A DNA stretch of 64,000 nucleotides from Massilia niastensis DSM 21313 (lineage in GTDB: Bacteria > Pseudomonadota > Gammaproteobacteria > Burkholderiales > Burkholderiaceae_D). Under the pieces are notes generated by a model. It was not told the DNA's origin. It saw nothing but the letters and a program-made list of their open reading frames with translations, and did no database searches. The stretch covers positions 1 to 64,000 of the forward strand of contig NZ_KB908092.1 in NCBI RefSeq assembly GCF_000382345.1, read 5' to 3'. Positions 50,717-59,917 of this stretch are shown here, piece by piece (position 1 is the first letter of the stretch; every line of letters begins with the position of its first letter). The translations under genes were made by a program, and so were the position numbers.

Positions 50717-52165
50717 TCAGAATGACATCGGTATCCGCACCGTCAGCGTGACGTCCGGGGTGTCGCGCGTGACGCCGGCGCCCACCGCGATGTTGAACGT
50801 GCGCTTTTCGTTCATGCGGTACGAGTAGCCCAGCAGCAAGGTGCCGAGCTGGGTCCGCACCGAGCCCGCCACCGGCGAGCCGTTCTGGCGCAGCCGCGCG
50901 ATCGTGCTGTGGTCGTAGCCCAGGCTCAGCGAGGCCTTGTCGTTCAGCGCCAGGCCCATGCCGAAGTTAAAGCCGATCACGTTGCCCGGCTCCAGCTCGC
51001 CCAGCGCCTCGCGCAGGCCGCCGCGCACCCTGCGCTCGACGGTGCGCTTGATGTTGTGCACATAGCTCAGGTTGCCGAAGAAGACCGCCGGATCGGATGG
51101 ATACAGCCAGGTCAGGCTGCCCTGTACCGACTGGAAGCCGGAACCGGTCGGCAGGCTCAGCGGCAGGCCGGTGCCGGTCACGTTCTCGCCGATGCAGCGG
51201 GTCTGGCAGTCGGTCACGACCTCGAACGGATCCTTGCCCGTGCGGCTCTTGTAGCGCAGGCCGGCGATGTAGAAAGCCTTGTCCGGGCCGCCGTCGTTGA
51301 GCTGGTAGCGTGCCGCCAGTTCGGCGTCGCCGATCTTCCTGCCGCTGGTGTTGAACACGCGCTCGACCGCCGTGCCGGTGAAGATCTCGCGGCTGACGGT
51401 AGCGTCCGAGCGGTAGACATAAGGCATCTTGGCCTCGACTTCCATCCGGTTGCTCAGGCCGGTACGGATGGTCAGCGCCCCGGTGAAGGTATTGCGCTTG
51501 ATTTCACGCACGTCGACCAGGCCGATCAGGAGCGCCGGGATTACGGTGTAGCCGACCAGCGCCACCCGGTTGCTCGAGGAGTAGCCGAATTGCAGCGAAG
51601 GTTCGAAGATGAACTTGCCGCGCGGCGTCAGCACGCCCGGCTGCTCGAACAGCGGCGCCACTTCCGGTGGGCGGTTCTCGCGCTGGCGGGTGGACGTGTT
51701 TTGCTGCTGCGCCTGGACCGGGTCCTGGGCGGCGGCGGGGCGGGGCGCCGCCGGGTTGGTCGGCTGGACGACCGGCGGCTGCGCCACCGGGGCCTGTCCG
51801 GTGCCGGCGCCGCCGGTGCCGCGCTGTTCGGCCAGGACGTCGGCACCCATGCCGGGCAGCAGCAGGATGCTGTCGGTGGCCGGCCGGGCCCGCGGTCCGG
51901 CCGCCAGTCCGGGGCGCTGCGCCGCCGCGTCCGGCGTGGCGTCTCCCTGCAGGCGCTGGAGCTGCGCGCGCTGGGATTTCACTTCCTGTACCAGTTTGTC
52001 GACGAGGGCGCGCTGTGCGGCCAGCTCCGCCTTCATGACCGCCAGTTCCTGTTCCGTGGCGGCCGGGGCGGCGCCGGCCGTGGGTTGCTGCTGGGCGAAT
52101 ACGGACGGCGTCAGCAGGGCTGCCGCGAGTCCGGCGGCTCTGAGCCGCGCGACATGTGGGGACAT
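50717..52165 (-). CDS. Outer-membrane beta-barrel with N-terminal coiled coil (FapF-like candidate exporter)
   Basis: 482 residues. Signal peptide to about residue 24; a heptad-like coiled coil at about 37-73 (MKAELAAQRALVDKLVQEVK); a Pro/Ala/Gln-rich linker to about 165; then a barrel-like region of alternating strands ending in a C-terminal Phe (RIPMSF), the outer-membrane insertion signal. This plan, coiled coil then barrel, is that of FapF, the channel exporting Fap amyloid subunits in Pseudomonas; similarity is by architecture and context. Last gene of the five-gene locus, 30 bases after the preceding gene. It could instead be a general porin-like protein. Confidence 0.7.
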   Translation of the reverse strand: MSPHVARLRAAGLAAALLTPSVFAQQQPTAGAAPAATEQELAVMKAELAAQRALVDKLVQEVKSQRAQLQRLQGDATPDAAAQRPGLAAGPRARPATDSILLLPGMGADVLAEQRGTGGAGTGQAPVAQPPVVQPTNPAAPRPAAAQDPVQAQQQNTSTRQRENRPPEVAPLFEQPGVLTPRGKFIFEPSLQFGYSSSNRVALVGYTVIPALLIGLVDVREIKRNTFTGALTIRTGLSNRMEVEAKMPYVYRSDATVSREIFTGTAVERVFNTSGRKIGDAELAARYQLNDGGPDKAFYIAGLRYKSRTGKDPFEVVTDCQTRCIGENVTGTGLPLSLPTGSGFQSVQGSLTWLYPSDPAVFFGNLSYVHNIKRTVERRVRGGLREALGELEPGNVIGFNFGMGLALNDKASLSLGYDHSTIARLRQNGSPVAGSVRTQLGTLLLGYSYRMNEKRTFNIAVGAGVTRDTPDVTLTVRIPMSF

Positions 52166-52195: not shown

Positions 52196-52753
52196 TTACA
52201 AGTTTCCTGCTGAGCGCACCAGCGCATCATGAATTGTTGACTGGATATTGAGGTCTTTCAGCAGGGACATGCTGTTCACCGTGGAGGTAATCGTGGTATA
52301 GGCACTGATCGTCTGGTCGTTCAGGCTGTTCTGGATCACCGTGGCGCCGTTCCCCAGGGCGAGGTCGGGCGCCGCGAAGTTGTTGTTGCCAATCTGGATC
52401 AGCCGGCCTGCGCCGATGGCTTCCTGCGCCAGGCGCGCCTGGTCGGCAGTCATGGTGGTCAGGTCGGGAATGGCGATGTTCGTGCGTGACATGACTTCGC
52501 CATTGACCGAGACCACGCGCTCGATGCCGAGCGCCAGCGTCAGTCCGCCCGGGACGTCGAAGCCGCCGCGGGTGTCCTCGAGCGCGTCGGCTGTCACCGG
52601 CGTGCCGAAGGCGGAAAGGTCCGACTCGCCGGCGTCGCCGACACCCGCCTCGGCTTCGCCGGCCCCCGAGGCATGGACCGCCGGCATCGTCCCGGCTGCG
52701 CCGAGAAGCGCGGCCAGCAGGGCGGCCGCGCGTACAGTGTGAAACCAGCGCAT
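52196..52753 (-). CDS. Small exported protein with RGG motif and Asn/Gln-rich C-terminus
   Basis: 185 residues, no cysteine. Signal peptide to about residue 28. A short acidic segment is followed by LEDTRGGFDVPGG at 58-70, resembling a double-glycine processing site (Leu at -7, Gly-Gly at 63-64). Then GLTLALGIERVVSVNGEV and a C-terminal half with VIQNSLNDQTI (about 137), a motif echoed in its operon partners. ATG 52753 follows AAGGAATTC. It lies directly after the C39 peptidase gene, which suggests it is a substrate or chaperone-like partner. I know no function for it. Confidence 0.75.
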   Translation of the reverse strand: MRWFHTVRAAALLAALLGAAGTMPAVHASGAGEAEAGVGDAGESDLSAFGTPVTADALEDTRGGFDVPGGLTLALGIERVVSVNGEVMSRTNIAIPDLTTMTADQARLAQEAIGAGRLIQIGNNNFAAPDLALGNGATVIQNSLNDQTISAYTTITSTVNSMSLLKDLNIQSTIHDALVRSAGNL

Positions 52754-52764
52754 ATGAATTCCTT

Positions 52765-53442
52765 TCAAAAATCGCCAGGGCCGAATTTCGGCAGCGTGGC
52801 GCTGAGCTGGTCCTGGTACATGCCGACACCCAGCGGCGCCCTTGGTGCGGTGCGCCAGTCGTCGGGGGCATTGAAGGCAGCCTGGCTGCGGTGGCTGTGG
52901 ATGACGAACAACAGCTTGTTGCGCCAGATCTCCCGGAAGCGATCCAGGCTCACGATCCGGTTGCCGGTGGATGGGTCGCCCATCAGGATGCGGCCGTCCT
53001 CGGCGCCCTTGATGACGACAAAATGGTTGTAGCCGCGGTCGGTGACCAGGACGATGGCAGGCAGCTTTTCAGCGATCAATTTCTCGATCGGAAGCTGGAA
53101 ACCGTCGCCGCGGAAGCCGCGCGAGGCAAGGAAGCGCTGCATGTCGAGCAGCGAGAAACCCTGGCGCTTGATCTTGTCCTGGTCGCCCTGGGTGAACATC
53201 TGTTCGAAGACGGTCTGCTCGCTGGTCGGCGTGCCGTAGTGGTGCGTCAGCAGGGTGGCGAGTGCGGCCGAGCCGCAACTGTAGTCGTACTGCTGGCGCG
53301 TGGTGCGCTTGAACTTGATGTCCTTCATGCTGGTGACGGGCACGTTGACGCGCTGCCCCACCGCCAGTTCGATAGCGGGCACCGGACGGGCCGGCGCCAG
53401 CAGGGTGCCGCACAGGGCGGCGAGGAGAAGTCCTCGTTTCAT
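52765..53442 (-). CDS. Exported C39-type cysteine peptidase (FapD-like)
   Basis: 225 residues with a signal peptide (about 1-23), so periplasmic or membrane-proximal. The papain-like C39 active site is complete: Gln50/51 and Cys56 in QQYDYSCGSAALATLL, His140 in GYNHFVVIKG, Asp156 in MGDPSTG. No ABC-transporter domains are attached. Related exported C39 peptidases occur in Fap amyloid operons (FapD) and beside other extracellular-fibre genes. The gene is one base from the upstream small gene, indicating one operon. Confidence 0.85.
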   Translation of the reverse strand: MKRGLLLAALCGTLLAPARPVPAIELAVGQRVNVPVTSMKDIKFKRTTRQQYDYSCGSAALATLLTHHYGTPTSEQTVFEQMFTQGDQDKIKRQGFSLLDMQRFLASRGFRGDGFQLPIEKLIAEKLPAIVLVTDRGYNHFVVIKGAEDGRILMGDPSTGNRIVSLDRFREIWRNKLLFVIHSHRSQAAFNAPDDWRTAPRAPLGVGMYQDQLSATLPKFGPGDF

Positions 53443-53443
53443 A

Positions 53444-53833
53444 CTATTGCATGTGCAGGTTGATGACGGTTGCGTTCTGGATCAGGACGTTCGCGCCGCT
53501 GTTCTGAATCACCACCGGAAGGCCCGAGGAATTCGCGAACGAGCCGCCCTGGATGACGTTCATGCCAGTGACGACATTGGTCGCGCTGTTGTTGCCGACC
53601 CCGCCACTGAGGGTGGCCGAGGCCTCGTTGTTGATTACATCGGAGCCGCCGCGCTGGCCGGCAAGCTGTGTGGTGTCGGCCTTCTTGCCCAGGGACGGAT
53701 CGTCCGTGACAGGCGCAACCCGCACCTCGGAAAGGAAACCGACCTTGACGGGCAGTTGTTCCGGTTCGGCGGCCTGGACAGCCAGTGACAACGACGCCAG
53801 CGCTGCCAGCAGGTAGGGAGTAGTCCGCTTCAT
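53444..53833 (-). CDS. Small exported protein, possible minor fibre subunit
   Basis: 129 residues, no cysteine. Signal peptide MKRTTPYLLAALASLSLAVQA. After a short linker the second half is rich in Asn, Gly, Ser, Val and Ile: NNEASATLSGGVGNNSATNV, then IQGGSFANSSG, ending VIQNSGANVLIQNATVINL. Alternating polar/hydrophobic residues suit a beta-strand or amyloid-like core. Its C-terminus matches that of the large repeat protein encoded just upstream (QNSGxxxLIQxxV). ATG 53833 begins the signal peptide; an upstream in-frame start is rejected. Confidence 0.75.
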   Translation of the reverse strand: MKRTTPYLLAALASLSLAVQAAEPEQLPVKVGFLSEVRVAPVTDDPSLGKKADTTQLAGQRGGSDVINNEASATLSGGVGNNSATNVVTGMNVIQGGSFANSSGLPVVIQNSGANVLIQNATVINLHMQ

Positions 53834-53890
53834 CGTGCTCTCGCTTGAAAAAGCCGTCACGCGGCCGGAGCCGCGTGACGGCAGTTGGTG

Positions 53891-55780
53891 TTACTGGCCG
53901 CCGACGTTCATGTTCGACTGGACGTTGACGCTCTGCTGGATCAGCGAGGAGAGGCCGGAGTTCTGGCTGATCACCATGATGCCCGCAGCCGACTGGGCGG
54001 TGCCAGTCATCGCGTTCGACATGTCGAACGCGCCGGTGGTCACGTTGTTGGTGCCGCCTGCGCCGCCGGTGCCCGCGCCGCCTGCGCCGCCGTTGCCTGC
54101 GCCAGCGGTGTTGGTGCCGCTGCTGCCGCCTGCGCCGCCGGTGCCGCCTGCGCCGCCCGCACCGCCTGCGCCGCCGTCGCCGCTGCTGGTGTCACCGGAG
54201 GACGCCGTGCTGCTCGCGTCGCCGTTGGTGGCCGCGCCGCCTGCGCCGCCCGCACCGGCAGTGTTGGACGCCGCACCGCTCGCGCCGCCTGCCGCGCCCG
54301 CGCCGCCGGTTGCGGTGCCGGCAGCGCCTGCGCCGCCTGCTCCGCCTGCCGCACCGCTGCCTGCCGCGCCTGCGCCGCCTGCCGCGCCGTTGCCTGCGCC
54401 GCCTGCACCGCCAGTGCTGGTCAGGGCTGCGCCTGCGCCGCCTGCACCGCCGGTGGCAGCGCCGCTAGCCGCGCCGGAACCGGTGGTGTTGGTGGCTCCG
54501 CCGCCTGCGCCGCCTGCGCCGCCTGCGCCGCCGGTCGAAGCACCGGCAGTGTTGGCGTTACCGCCAGCGGTTCCTGCGCCACCGGTCTGGGTATCGGCGC
54601 CATCGCCGCCATTGCCGTTGCCGCCGCCGACACCGACGCTCACACCAACCTGGAGCGAGCCGCTCGCGCCGCCGCCGCCGCCGCCGCCGCCGGCTGCGCC
54701 GCCGGTTGCGCTGCCGCCGCCGCCGGAGCCGCCATCGCCGCTACCCGCGCCGCCGCCGGTGCCGCCGTTGCCGCCGGCCAGGTAGCCGGTACGGCCGCCG
54801 TCGCCGCCGACGCCGAAGCCGCCGGAGCCGCCACGGCCGCCAAAGCCCGAGCCGCCTTTGCCGCCATCTCCGCCGCCGCCGCCGACCGCGATCGCGTTGC
54901 CGCCCGAGCCGCCACGGCCGCCGTCGCCGCTGCTGGCGTTGCCGGTGGCGCCGCCGTAGCCGCCGTTGGCGCCGTTGGCGTCGCCGACCGATGCGCTGCC
55001 GCTGCGGGCATCGCCGCCCTTGGCGTCGCCGCTGGAGCCGCCGCGTGCGCCGTCACCGGCATAGCTGTTGCCGCCGTCCCCGGCGATGCCGACGGCCTTG
55101 CCGCCATCGCCGTCACCGCCTTTCGCGCCATAGCCCTTGCCGCCGTTGGCGTCGCCGCTGTTGGTGGCGTAGTTGCCGATGTTGCTGATCTCGTTGCCGA
55201 TCACGGCGCCCTTCAGGATGCTGGTAGCCGTGGCGGTCGAGGTGTTGAACGAGTTGGTGATCGAGGAAGTCGCGGTCGAACCGTTGTTGGCCGCTGCAGC
55301 GCCCAACGCGGAGGCGGCATCGCCCTCGCTGTTGTTCTGGCCCGAATTGTCGGTCGTCTTGGTGTAGGTATCGTTGTCGTTCTTGGTAATCGTCGTCGTC
55401 TTGGTATCAGTCTCGGTATTCGAGAAAGTCTTGGTGTCGTTGTCGTTCTTGGTAATGGTCGTCGTCTTGGTGTCGTTGTCGTTCTTGGTGATGGTCGTCG
55501 TCTTGGTGTCGGTCTCGGTATTGGTGAAAGTGTTGGTCTTGGTGTCGTTGTCGTTCTTGGTGATGTTGTTGGTCCTGGTGTCGGTCTCGGTGTTGGTGAT
55601 GGTCGCCGTCTTGCTGTTGTCGCTGTTGTCCGTGTAGGTGCTGTTGTCCGTCTTGATCGTCTGGTTCGACACCGCGACCGCAAGGTTGCGGTCGCCATCG
55701 ATCGTATTTTCCGCAGTGCTTTGTGCATGTGCCATGCCGAATGCCAGGGCGATCGCCGTTGCCAGGATAGTGCGCTTCAT
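53891..55780 (-). CDS. Large exported repeat protein, putative extracellular fibre or matrix protein
   Basis: 629 residues, no cysteine. Signal peptide MKRTILATAIALAFGMAHAQ. Residues 62-143 are seven tandem units of about 12 residues alternating TNTETDTKTTTI and TKNDNDTKTTTI. Residues about 150-210 are Ala/Asn/Ser-rich. Residues about 212-577 are a Gly/Ala tract (GGAGGAG, GGNGGTGG) like PE_PGRS or glycine-rich structural proteins. The last 52 residues are ordinary sequence ending SQNSGLSSLIQQSVNVQSNM. ATG 55780 follows GGGAGTCATA; an upstream in-frame start is inside the leader. First gene of the five-gene locus, behind a sigma-54 promoter. An amyloid or adhesive role is inferred. Confidence 0.8.
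   Translation of the reverse strand: MKRTILATAIALAFGMAHAQSTAENTIDGDRNLAVAVSNQTIKTDNSTYTDNSDNSKTATITNTETDTRTNNITKNDNDTKTNTFTNTETDTKTTTITKNDNDTKTTTITKNDNDTKTFSNTETDTKTTTITKNDNDTYTKTTDNSGQNNSEGDAASALGAAAANNGSTATSSITNSFNTSTATATSILKGAVIGNEISNIGNYATNSGDANGGKGYGAKGGDGDGGKAVGIAGDGGNSYAGDGARGGSSGDAKGGDARSGSASVGDANGANGGYGGATGNASSGDGGRGGSGGNAIAVGGGGGDGGKGGSGFGGRGGSGGFGVGGDGGRTGYLAGGNGGTGGGAGSGDGGSGGGGSATGGAAGGGGGGGGASGSLQVGVSVGVGGGNGNGGDGADTQTGGAGTAGGNANTAGASTGGAGGAGGAGGGATNTTGSGAASGAATGGAGGAGAALTSTGGAGGAGNGAAGGAGAAGSGAAGGAGGAGAAGTATGGAGAAGGASGAASNTAGAGGAGGAATNGDASSTASSGDTSSGDGGAGGAGGAGGTGGAGGSSGTNTAGAGNGGAGGAGTGGAGGTNNVTTGAFDMSNAMTGTAQSAAGIMVISQNSGLSSLIQQSVNVQSNMNVGGQ
54050..55147 (-). repeat. Glycine/alanine-rich tandem coding repeat
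   Basis: About 1.1 kb of GGN-GCN codon repeats within the large exported protein, strongly G-rich on the coding strand. Units such as GGAGGAG and GGDGG are imperfect and of variable length, so the tract is likely to vary in length among strains. Confidence 0.85.
55352..55597 (-). repeat. 36-base minisatellite encoding Thr/Asn/Asp repeats
   Basis: Seven tandem units, six of 36 bases and one shortened by two codons, encoding alternating TNTETDTKTTTI and TKNDNDTKTTTI. Units 4 and 5 are nearly identical at the DNA level, a sign of recent duplication. The Asp/Asn pattern could bind calcium. Confidence 0.88.
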
Positions 55781-55848: not shown

Positions 55849-55864
55849 AGCACTTGCCGTGCCA
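55849..55864 (-). promoter_or_regulatory. Sigma-54 promoter of the fibre locus
   Basis: On the minus strand: TGGCACGGCAAGTGCT. Against the consensus TGGCACG-N4-TTGCW it differs only at the first T of the -12 block (G here); the GG and GC doublets are correctly ten bases apart. It would start transcription near 55838, about 58 bases ahead of the large exported protein. Confidence 0.8.
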
Positions 55865-56159: not shown

Positions 56160-57494
56160 CTACGGCGAGATCGAATGCTTGGCCATCAGGCGGTACAGCG
56201 TCATGCGCGAGACGCCGAGGTCGCGCGCGGCCTGGCTGATGTTGTTGCCGCTGCGCGCCAGGCTGTCCCAGATCGCGGCCCGCTCCGCGTTGAGGCGCGT
56301 GTTGCCGAGGCCATCCTGGACCGGGCTGAGCGGGACGATGCCCGGCAGTTCCAGGTCTTCCGGCATCAGGAGGCGGTGCTCGGCGAGCACCATCGCGCGC
56401 CGCACGCGGTTGATCAGCTCGCGCACATTGCCCGGCCAGTCGTACTGGGCCATCGCCTGCAGCGCTTCCCTGCTCACGCCCTTGAGCTGCGGGCTGCGTT
56501 CCTCGGCATACTTGTTGAAGACCAGTTCGGTCAGCAGGGACAGGTCTTCCTTGCGCTCGCGCAGCGGCGGCACCCGGATCGGGAACACGCTGAGGCGGTA
56601 GTACAGGTCTTCGCGGAAGCGGCCCGCGGCCACGGCCTGCGGCAGGTTGACGTGGGTGGCGGCGATCACGCGCGCATCGACCGCGATGGTGCGGGTGCTG
56701 CCGACACGGTAGATCACGCGCTCCTGCAGGAAGCGCAGCAGGCTGGCCTGGAGGTCGAGCGGCAGGTCGCCGATCTCGTCGAGGAAGATGCTGCCGCCCG
56801 ACGCGGCTTCGAGCAGGCCCTGCTTGTCCTTGGCGGCGCCGGTGAAGGCGCCGCGTTCATGGCCGAACAGTTCGGAGTGGATCAGCGCCGGCGCGACGGC
56901 GGCGCAGTTGATCGCGATGAAAGGGCCGGCGGCGCGCTGCGAGCGCGCGTGCACTTCCTGCGCCGCCAGTTCCTTGCCGCTGCCGCTTTCGCCCGAGATC
57001 AGCACCGGCGCGTCGACCGCCGCGATCTTGGCGATGTGGGCGCGCAGGCGCACGATGGCTTCCGAGTTGCCGGTGATGCGGCCGGCGGCGGCCGAGCGCG
57101 GGTTCGGCTGCGGGGTCTTGCCGAGCACCGCCATGCCGTGCGCGTGGCCGAGCGAATGCTGGAGCCGCAGCGGGTCCACCGGCCGCGTATGGAAATCGAA
57201 CAGGTGGGTCGCGATCAGGTGGCGCAGCGCCGGCTGTTCGAGGCGGACCGGATCGAACACGCCGATCCAGCGCACGTGATGGTGGCGGCGCAGGAAGCGC
57301 TCGGTTTCTTCGTCGCGGGTGGAGTCGCCGCTGTCGAGCAGCAGGCCGACGGCGTAATGCTGCTGCGACAGCACCTTGCGCGCGGCGGCCACGGTGTCGA
57401 CCAGGCAGACGTCCCAGGCGCGCAGCTCGCCATACACCACGCGCGCATAGGCGCCATCCTCATTCGTTACGCATAACAAACGTTTAACAGACAC
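56160..57494 (-). CDS. Sigma-54-dependent activator with degenerate receiver (VpsR-like)
   Basis: 444 residues. The N-terminal 125 residues look like a receiver: Asp54 in [10 protein letters not shown] stands at the phosphorylation position, but the conserved Lys before Pro is Arg (HTRPVDP), so normal phosphorylation is doubtful. The AAA+ domain has Walker A GESGSGKE near residue 165, an intact GAFTGA loop for sigma-54 contact and Walker [10 protein letters not shown] Fis-type helix-turn-helix ([19 protein letters not shown]) ends it. GTG start after GAGG. It lies directly upstream of the fibre locus and is its likely activator; VpsR relatives bind c-di-GMP. Confidence 0.9.
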
Positions 57495-57718: not shown

Positions 57719-59917
57719 CTAACGGGCGCTGGCGAGCAAGGCCACCAGCTTCTCGATCGGGTAGGGCTTGGCCAGCACCTGCACGCCGGGAATGGCGGCC
57801 TGGCGCTCGGTGTAGCCGGTGGCCAGCACGACCGGCATGGCCGGGTAGCGCTGGCGCACGATGCCGGCCAGATCGATGCCACTGATCTTACCCGGCATGA
57901 CGATGTCAGAAAAGACAATCCTTGGAAGGATGCCGCTATCGAGCAGTTCGACGGCATGTTCGCCGTTGTGGGCAACCAACACCTCGAATCCGCATTCCTC
58001 CAGGGCATGCAAGACCGCTTCCCGCACCAGCGGATCGTCTTCCACGAACAGCACCGTGCCGCGTGCGCGCGGCAAGGGGAGGGCGGCCTCCGGCGGCGGC
58101 GCGGCGCGGACCGGCAGGCTTGCGCGCGGCAGGTAGATGTCGACCCGGGTGCCCTGGCCGGGTTCGCTGTCGAGCAGCAGCAGGCCCTGCGACTGCGCCG
58201 CGAACGCGTAGGCCTGCGGCAGTCCGAGGCCGGTGCCCTGGCCCTGGGCCTTGGTGGTGAAGAAGGGATCGAGGGCGCGCGCCAGCACCTCGGGCGGCAT
58301 GCCGCAACCGCTGTCCTGCACCCGCACCCGCACGTAGTCGCCCGGCGCCAGCGGACCGGGCGGCAGCGCCAGCGCGTGGTTGTCGGCCGCGATGCGCAGG
58401 GCGCCGCCGCGCGGCATCGCATCGCGCGCATTGATCGCCAGGTTCAGCAGCGCCAGGTCGAATTGCAAGGGCTCGACGGTCACCGGCCACAGGCCTTCCC
58501 CGCAGTCGACCTCGAGCGAGATATCGTCGCGCAGCGCGCCCCGTATCAGCTGGAGCGCGCTGCGCAGTTGCCTGCCGGGATCGACCGTTTCCAGGCGCGC
58601 TTCCTGGATCCGCCCGAACGAGCCGAGCTGGCCGGTGAGGGCGGTGGCGCGCTGCACCGTCTTCTGGCAGGTCTGGATCAGTCCCTGCACCCTGGACTGG
58701 GTGGAGGTCATCCCGGCCAGCTGCAGCGCCGTGGTCAGGGTCTGCAGCAGGTTGTTGAATTCGTGCGCGATGCCGCCGGTCAGGCGCCCGAGCGCCTCCA
58801 GTTTCTGGGACTTGAGCAGGGCGCTCTGCGCGCGTTCGGTGGCGGCGACCGCTTCGGCCACGCGCTGCTCGAGTTCCTGCTGCGCATGCAGGATCTTGCG
58901 GCTGGCCTCGGCCATGCGCAGGGCCACGCCGTCGATCTCGGCCAGGCCCTGCGCTTCGTAGCGCACCTCCTTGCCCTGGCCCAGCTCTTCCGCGCTGCGC
59001 TCCAGGTACTCGATCGGCCGGATCGCCTGCGCCGCCAGGCGGCGCGCCGCCAGCACCCCGGCCGCCAGCAGCAGCAGCATGAGACCGCCGAGCATGGCCG
59101 CGGCCTGCAGCGGCACGCGCCGGATCTCGCTGACCGGGATGCTGACCAATACTTTCCAGCCGGTGTTCGGCACCGTGCTGAAGAAGGCGCGCACCCTGAT
59201 GCCGTCCAGGCTGCGGCTCTCGTACACGCCTTCGCTGGCGGTGTTCAGGCGCATGCGGCTGTAGGTGCGGATCGGGCTGCCGACGAAGGCTTCCGGCTGG
59301 CGCGAACGGGCCAGCACCATGCCCTGGCGGTCGACCACGGTGGCCAGCCAGTCGTCGCGGAAATGCTGGCGCCTGAGCAGGGGTTGCAGCGCGCTGGCGT
59401 TGACGCCCATGACGAGGAAATAGCGCAGCGCGCCGTCGATGCGCACCGGCACCTGGATCGTGAAGTCGTGGCGCTTGCCGAGCGGGGCCATGAAGAGGTC
59501 CGACACCAGCATCCGCTCGGCGCCCTGTTCACGCATCAGCTCGTCGATATTCGAGACGCGCCGCAGCGGCAGCGTCGCGCCATACGGGGCCCGGGTATTG
59601 AGCAGCTGGCGTCCGCCCGGCTCGACCAGGATGATGGTCGACTCGGCCGTCGGCGCCATGCGCCGGGCGTGGGCATAAAACTCTTCCAGCCGCCCCCGGC
59701 TGAGCGAGGGCGAGCCGGCCAGGGCATGGAGGATGCCGGCCCTGCTCTGGATTTCATTGTCGACCAGCAGGGCGAAGGCGCGGGTCGCCTCGGCCACGCT
59801 CTCGGCCTGCGACACCTGTCCCTCGCGGTAGACATAGGCCACCGCCAGCGCTGCGGCGACGAAGGACGGCACCAGCACGGACAGCACGAGGATCAGGAGG
59901 CGGGTGCGGATGCGCAT
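57719..59917 (-). CDS. Hybrid sensor histidine kinase
   Basis: 732 residues: membrane helix at about 8-28, a periplasmic dCache-like sensor (about 35-275), second helix at about 278-298, HAMP region, coiled coil, HisKA with [11 protein letters not shown] (His near residue 385), HATPase with [14 protein letters not shown] and [17 protein letters not shown], and a C-terminal receiver with VEDDPLVRE and FSDIVMPG (Asp near residue 676). No separate response regulator is adjacent except the sigma-54 activator gene 224 bases downstream on the same strand, so the two may act together. Confidence 0.92.

Follow-up and report, generated by a model that had tools for sequence, protein, structure and literature searches.

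A C-terminal segment shared by two predicted exported proteins of Massilia niastensis is probably a single amyloid repeat of the Fap kind

In the Fap fibre system (fapABCDEF) of Pseudomonas and relatives, the subunits FapB and FapC carry an imperfect repeat of 39 positions in the published hidden Markov model (HMM). Each FapC repeat is reported to form one cross-β layer, which is stabilised by Asn, Gln and Gly residues that are conserved (PMC12392863), and FapB and FapC are reported to cross-seed (PMC12822426). The surveys of this system used FapBC_repeat HMMs and required such a hit, and three repeats are described there as almost universal (PMC12392863, PMC12822426). The survey of December 2025 describes Fap as evolutionarily fixed, with almost invariably three repeats in FapB and FapC (PMC12822426). 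Fap has also been reported in Burkholderia and a Ralstonia, as has a single repeat in Vibrio FapB, and matches to FapD and FapF in the absence of Fap are taken there as a likely sign that these families are larger (PMC3792158). Here we analysed a stretch of 64,000 nucleotides from Massilia niastensis DSM 21313 (contig NZ_KB908092.1, positions 1 to 64,000), hereafter called the window, in which a large and a small predicted exported protein share a C-terminal segment. The genes belong to a set on the minus strand, with the transcription order sigma-54 activator, large protein, small protein, C39 peptidase, 185-residue protein and β-barrel. In our view the shared ending probably represents a single Fap-type amyloid repeat, and the locus is probably a Fap-like secretion and assembly set. 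The two proteins and their repeat segments are as follows.

53891..55780, minus strand: large exported protein (predicted), 629 residues, FapC-like, with a signal-peptide-like start by eye
53894..54049, minus strand: block B of the large protein, its last 52 residues, a C-terminal repeat segment apparently related to the Fap imperfect repeat
53927..53965, minus strand: shared motif of the large protein, QNSGLSSLIQQSV, residues 606-618, read in the sequence
53444..53833, minus strand: small exported protein (predicted), 129 residues, with one putative Fap-like repeat unit, FapB-like
53447..53632, minus strand: repeat unit of the small protein, its last 62 residues, with QNSGANVLIQ at residues 110-119

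The initial annotation had described a pattern QNSG-x3-LIQ-x2-V at the extreme C-terminus of both proteins. The core QNSG-x3-LIQ was indeed present in both, at residues 606-615 of the large and 110-119 of the small protein; the continuation -x2-V was found in the large protein only, the small one having x3-V, and the core was followed by 14 residues in the large and 10 in the small protein, so that the motif is not strictly terminal. When the two proteins were aligned locally over their last 60 residues, the score was 71; 2000 shuffles averaged 34 and did not exceed 67. Similarly, a profile-profile comparison of 99 large with 99 small endings gave 25.8, the maximum with shuffled columns being 17.1 (0 of 60 as high). 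The exact core occurred in 84 of 99 distinct small endings and in just 10 of 98 distinct large endings, suggesting that the letter-exact identity of the window pair is partly luck. A first relaxed pattern matched 83 of the 98 large and 89 of the 99 small endings. The relaxed core used below is a shorter and looser pattern, adopted after viewing the misses of that first pattern, which has one more position; it was present in 96 of the 98 distinct large endings and in all 99 distinct small ones, and both large endings lacking it came from one locus (L212) and have QQSG. The shared ending is thus kept in orthologous loci, as the initial annotation had asked to be checked. Its whole-genome check likewise did not speak against the motif, as profile searches of the organism's own genome up to E 10 found one place each for the large ending and the small protein, and no further protein with this ending.

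The endings were then compared with Fap repeats. A class-wide search with the FapD model found 43 of 369 genomes, and 35 places were fetched. The 15 best loci (L102-L116) are referred to as canonical Fap, eleven of them (L102-L111 and L114) having been inspected gene by gene, and L117-L130 as more distant loci. The label canonical rests on gene order and repeats, because no such locus passes the cut-off of the NCBIfam FapD model (330 bits; best 284 bits, 0 of 369 genomes above). Repeat and ending comparisons used 12 FapB, 12 FapC and 11 FapE from L102-L116, the rest being left out. In 12 canonical loci, FapB showed three repeats by pattern and FapC two or three, except in L115, a Fap-like locus with a FapC-type protein of ten repeats by the pattern used. 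Canonical FapB and FapC share a common ending, AF..asG...vNqaaG..N...N, which aligns with the window endings, and the pattern A[FL]..asG...v...aG..N...N of the imperfect repeat is also found in the window proteins. A pooled profile of 77 rows, composed of 25 small and 25 large endings taken at random and 27 endings of distant loci, scored 23.9 against 75 Fap repeats over 34 alignable columns, the shuffle maximum being 14.3 (0 of 100); the 27 distant endings in it had been chosen for matching window-type profiles and came from 12 of the 14 loci L117-L130 (none from L117 or L125, and none from L131-L136). Three FapC-like proteins encoded at L118 and L119, two of the distant loci, carry the window-type repeat in four copies at a spacing of about 70 residues. 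A longer FapC unit that includes an LSGTV-like stretch, built from ten FapC picked by repeat pattern from L102-L116, matched the small endings together with those of the distant loci (0 of 100 shuffles), yet over 16 columns only, which is suggestive of a homology that may reach the first half of the FapC layer. At an i-E below 0.01, the profile of 75 Fap repeats matched 0 of 82 large proteins longer than 400 residues and 2 of 27 distant-locus proteins. The link to the Fap repeats is drawn from the pooled profile, the four-copy relatives and the partner proteins described below. Taken together, the apparent homology and the four-copy relatives led us to read the ending as a repeat that is terminal and single here, rather than as a terminal tag.

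The initial annotation had offered a recognition signal for the barrel as one of two roles of the ending. A C-terminal signal recognised by the FapF-like barrel, through the coiled-coil-like stretch near its N-terminus, or by the C39 peptidase, would fit two observations: a version of the ending is present in all three presumed exported proteins, though in a weaker form in the 185-residue protein, and the end of the core lies 10-21 residues from the C-terminus in all 195 distinct endings with the core (96 large and 99 small). However, relatives carry the same element internally and in several copies, four in the proteins of L118 and L119 and three in 12 of 12 canonical FapB, and the ending is therefore not a once-per-protein terminal tag. 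Moreover, Gly-rich tails follow the element in most canonical FapC examined, 36 residues follow the echo in the 185-residue protein, and a signal would not need homology to a cross-β repeat. We thus regard recognition as an unlikely primary function of the ending, though it may be a secondary one, and prefer to read the ending as an amyloid repeat.

The neighbouring genes were consistent with this preferred reading. After the subunit genes, the window has a C39 peptidase, a putative FapE-like protein and a FapF-like barrel in the same order as Fap.

52765..53442, minus strand: C39 peptidase, FapD/FilB-like, 225 residues
52196..52753, minus strand: 185-residue protein, putatively FapE-like
50717..52165, minus strand: outer-membrane β-barrel, FapF-like; by eye, part of its N-terminal region looks like a coiled coil
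53645..53665, minus strand: LAGQRGG, C39-type double-glycine site of the small protein
52562..52582, minus strand: LEDTRGG, C39-type double-glycine site of the 185-residue protein
52307..52339, minus strand: VIQNSLNDQTI, partial repeat echo in the 185-residue protein, significant as a profile against small endings only

A profile of 16 barrels searched against the PDB matched crystal structures of FapF (5o67, 5o65 and 5o68; E 9.3e-40 to 5.3e-38, 321 positions), the only other matches being two coiled-coil chains at E 0.22 and 0.33. The barrel scored 136.1 bits with the NCBIfam FapF model (E 1.4e-39, below the curated cut-off of 700), and the peptidase 138.6 bits with the FapD model (E 1.8e-40), likewise below the cut-off. 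Residues C56, G57, A59 and A60 of the SCGSAA stretch of the peptidase were invariant in 21 sequences. The 185-residue family compared with FapE gave 28.0, the shuffle maximum being 22.9 (0 of 100), with an hhalign probability of only 20% over 32 columns. The single aligned place was L-x3-RGG-[FY] against [LM]-x3-RG[RK]-[FY], and the C-terminal parts alone were not similar (8 of 60 shuffles as good). These comparisons indicate homology to Fap for the FapD-like and FapF-like partners, and more weakly suggest it for the FapE-like protein. As for the partial echo that the initial annotation had noted in the 185-residue protein, only the family-level likeness to small endings stood: its profile scored 28.3 against them (shuffle maximum 24.8, 0 of 60), whereas 20 of 60 shuffles were as good against large endings, and the single sequence was matched by 1383 of 2000 shuffles against the small and 334 of 2000 against the large protein.

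The C39 peptidase of Fap is thought to process FapE and FapF (PMC12822426, PMC5557850). In the window-type loci, LxxxRGG was present in 103 of 104 distinct 185-residue-type proteins; the single exception shows a GA or AG variant. Of 103 small proteins, 75 have LxxxRGG and 8 more have GA or AG variants. The background was 1.5% and 0.5% in shuffled 185-residue-type and small proteins, respectively, and one of 101 large proteins has the motif. These sites point to the two proteins as putative substrates of the C39 peptidase. With its 129 residues and C39-type RGG site, the small protein differs from FapB, which has 198-254 residues in the compared loci. In the small protein of one group of Massilia, a close relative, SGKDD or TGKDD stands where the RGG site would be.

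Trees were built from 61 peptidase and 59 barrel rows, with 26 window-type rows from about 120 loci, and are read as unrooted. Canonical Fap formed one clan (99/91 in the peptidase tree and 100/97 in the barrel tree), and the window type and the distant loci formed another (99/98 and 100/99, respectively). Within the second clan the window type was nested with I130 (100/100 and 100/99), several other rows being long-branched. In the FapD and FapF trees alike, the locus thus falls into a branch alongside canonical Fap. The Fil system of Acinetobacter (FilA-F), a putative pilus, also has a related C39 peptidase (FilB) and barrel (FilC), and the window peptidase matches FilB as well as it matches FapD (139.7 bits, E 1.2e-40; cut-off 475). 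However, the barrel match is far weaker for FilC (52.9 bits, E 3.5e-14; cut-off 630) than for FapF, and the subunit endings are Fap-repeat-like. On the peptidase and barrel scores and the endings of the window subunits, a Fil-type pilus instead of a Fap-type amyloid is therefore very improbable in our judgement, and Fil may itself be a Fap relative.

The large ending and the small protein also co-occur across genomes. Of 195 family genomes, 38 encode the small protein and 37 the large ending, every genome with the large ending being one of the 38. The large-ending profile found 44 places in the 195 genomes, 43 of which adjoin a small gene; the remaining one is an orphan large-type gene (L219 5567-7159, minus strand, an open reading frame (ORF) of 530 residues), with the other five genes absent from the 12 kb read, in a genome (G055) that holds a full gene set elsewhere. 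We read 40 stretches around the small-protein places of those family genomes, the window's own excluded. The large gene was called in 38 of them; of the two others, L070 retains a large ending truncated by the start of its contig, and the contig of L043 starts within the small gene. When species-representative genomes were scanned, 403 stretches came up as candidates, of which 322 were confirmed to encode a small-protein relative, and the best 80 of the 322 were kept as loci. By the small protein, the nearest named relatives of the window are in Massilia, which would make its genome one of the Oxalobacteraceae. A recognised large gene and a recognised 185-residue-type gene were each present in 79 of these best 80, which come from Massilia, Telluria, Janthinobacterium, Duganella, Rugamonas, Pseudoduganella, Herbaspirillum and Undibacterium among others, and further from Variovorax, Rhodoferax, Ralstonia and Dyella. 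In L180 the large and small genes stand alone. Large genes at contig ends are cut (e.g., L038, L039, L048, L054 and L059), and some ORFs have naive start codons.

That the likeness of the two endings is convergence or chance between two Asn/Gln-rich exported proteins is scarcely credible to us. Asn, Gln, Ser and Gly are abundant in both endings, and when a portion of the large protein that lacks the ending is aligned with the small protein, the score is 51, a value reached by 121 of 2000 shuffles, so that composition alone yields some similarity. However, composition-preserving shuffles fall short of what the endings score, position-by-position conservation of the core is seen in more than 90 distinct sequences per family, and the large ending fully co-occurs with the small protein.

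Several arrangements of these genes were observed besides the usual one. Tandem pairs of large genes, both with the shared ending, occur in L033, L034, L035, L141, L143, L145, L146 and L148, and in L033 and L035 each tandem copy has its own sigma-54-like site. Two sets, or parts of two, follow each other within 15 kb in L159, L161, L169 and L173. A 514-residue ORF of L214 (Dyella solisilvae), the one of the best 80 loci in which no large gene was recognised, was considered as a fusion of large and small proteins and rejected, as it contains a masked run of N and the usual ending of the large protein is read on in a different frame.

The large protein differs from Fap in a large Gly-rich stretch. 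Its order is a signal-peptide-like start (by eye), Thr/Asn/Asp-rich repeats, block A, the Gly-rich stretch and block B; a Thr/Asn/Asp-rich N-terminal part is also seen in some FapC.

55142..55270, minus strand: block A of the large protein, residues 171-213, resembling the segment upstream of the small-protein motif
54050..55141, minus strand: Gly-rich stretch between blocks A and B, an apparent insertion inside the repeat unit

Of 101 distinct large proteins, 82 are longer than 400 residues; all 82 have one repeat, as does the small protein, and block A was found in 81 of the 82. The gap between blocks A and B ranges from 45 to 576 residues, with a median of 415. The initial annotation had taken the proteins to be unrelated outside the shared motif, which is not quite the case: block A, at about residues 171-213, resembles the small-protein segment upstream of the motif over 16 columns, and the profile-profile score over 16-17 columns was 19.5 (maximum 15.4, 0 of 100). 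Block A also matched 11 distant FapC-like proteins (24.1, maximum 16.6, 0 of 100), in 9 of which both parts of the unit lie close together. As a search profile at an i-E below 0.01, block A retrieved 3 of 109 small proteins, including the artefact of L214, and its link to the small family therefore rests on the profile-profile score. From these comparisons, a Gly-rich domain appears to have been inserted into the repeat unit of the large protein, splitting it. FapC layers are reported to contain disordered residues (58-59, 123-124 and 186-197; PMC12392863), which by analogy we take as a plausible counterpart of the place of insertion.

A number of observations weigh against a Fap-type amyloid and have to be set beside the evidence above. 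The window has one repeat per subunit, whereas about 94% of published FapB and FapC have three, and deletion of repeats in FapC is reported to raise fibril fragmentation (PMC12822426). The large gene precedes the small one, whereas in the inspected canonical loci FapB, the smaller subunit, comes before FapC. The similarity to Fap repeats was weak when the endings were not pooled, with 1 to 5 of 60 shuffles as good: 5 of 60 against FapC and 4 of 60 against FapB for the large ending, and 2 of 60 against FapB and 1 of 60 against FapC for the small ending. The longer FapC unit compared with the small protein alone was equalled by 2 of 100 shuffles, with an alignment out of register. Among the 103 small proteins, 20 had no RGG-type site, two of these being cut at the contig start. 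A search of PDB sequences with the small-protein profile gave no match up to E 10, FapC included. AlphaFold2 modelled the small protein (alignment of 30 rows) without strands, at a mean predicted local distance difference test (pLDDT) score of 59.6, and drew the large ending (24 rows) as two helices, at a mean pLDDT of 61.4; such single-chain models are uninformative, and we used them as evidence in neither direction.

The other role that the initial annotation had suggested, a nucleating β-arch co-assembling the two proteins, gained support from the apparent homology of the ending to the FapB/FapC repeat and from the FapD-, FapE- and FapF-like neighbours. Co-assembly of both subunits is, on these sequence comparisons, the likeliest role of the ending. 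In the mechanism that we propose, the sigma-54 activator would switch the operon on, and the large, small and 185-residue proteins would cross the inner membrane unfolded. L-x3-R-G-G would be the site after which the C39 peptidase cuts the 185-residue protein and, in most lineages, also the small protein, and all three proteins would leave through the FapF-like barrel. Outside the cell, the repeat of the small protein would nucleate and the repeats of the large protein would join as matching cross-β layers, so that, through their common ending, two subunits that differ elsewhere could stack within a single fibre. The Gly-rich stretch, placed between the two parts of the repeat unit, would protrude from the fibre as a coat. 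Export, cleavage, the nucleator and major-subunit roles, the cross-β layering and fibre formation are what we infer from the genes and their relatives. More tentatively, we suggest as a real possibility a sister branch of Fap in which each subunit contributes a single cross-β layer to an alternating or seeded stack, and the loop insertion of about 400 Gly-rich residues gives an amyloid coated with a glycine brush. The proposed pair recalls curli, in which a nucleator and a major subunit (CsgB and CsgA) with common repeats are described (PMC12822426). However, Pfam recognised no curlin repeats in either of the two window subunits (0 families at E<=1), and the barrel is FapF-like.

The 5' side of the set contains its candidate regulation.

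56160..57494, minus strand: sigma-54-dependent activator with a VpsR domain, AAA+ and a Fis-type helix-turn-helix (Pfam), just upstream of the set
55849..55864, minus strand: sigma-54 (-24/-12) promoter-like site, TGGCACGGCAAGTGCT, 84 bases 5' of the large gene

The activator gene was present in 32 of the 40 loci read from family genomes, the remaining 8 being cut near the large or small gene. The pattern TGG[CT]A[CT]-N6-TGC was found upstream of the large gene in 33 of 36 sufficiently long upstream regions (the window and L031-L069), as compared with 0.4% of shuffled regions; its distance to the chosen start codon was mostly 74-99 bases, in one case only 21. The adjoining activator gene is an obvious candidate regulator of an operon with such a site, and a sigma-54-type activator gene also lies on the stretch in 13 of the 15 canonical-type Fap loci. 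A hybrid histidine kinase with Cache and receiver domains (57719-59917, minus strand) adjoins the activator and is a possible input to the operon. Among same-strand ORFs in the roughly 380 bases between the activator and the large gene, no separate fapA-like gene was seen, no FapA model having been run; fapA is reported as missing from some published fap clusters (PMC3792158; PMC12392863). A protein of about 104-139 residues with an LWDE-type motif, in some cases with a double-glycine-like stretch, was noticed near the Fap-type genes of L102, L103, L104, L107, L110 and L117.

The large, small and 185-residue proteins had no Pfam match at E<=1. NCBIfam gave nothing for the large protein at E<=1, and for the small and 185-residue proteins only chance-level matches far below the cut-off. 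Since not one of the 82 large proteins is picked up by the Fap profile built from 75 repeats, the published surveys based on repeat HMMs probably miss this branch. In our literature searches, with full texts limited to open-licence papers, we found no description of Fap-like systems in Massilia, Janthinobacterium, Duganella, Variovorax or Rhodoferax, nor of a single-repeat FapC. The locus therefore appears to represent a widespread and apparently undescribed side branch of the Fap fibre system, which retains the secretion components and has one repeat per subunit and not three. If the single-layer reading is true, it breaks the published rule of three repeats per Fap subunit. If these proteins form fibres, they would be a natural minimal functional amyloid with one layer per subunit, on which the number of repeats required for a functional amyloid could be examined directly, and would show in nature how an amyloid layer can carry a large domain on display.

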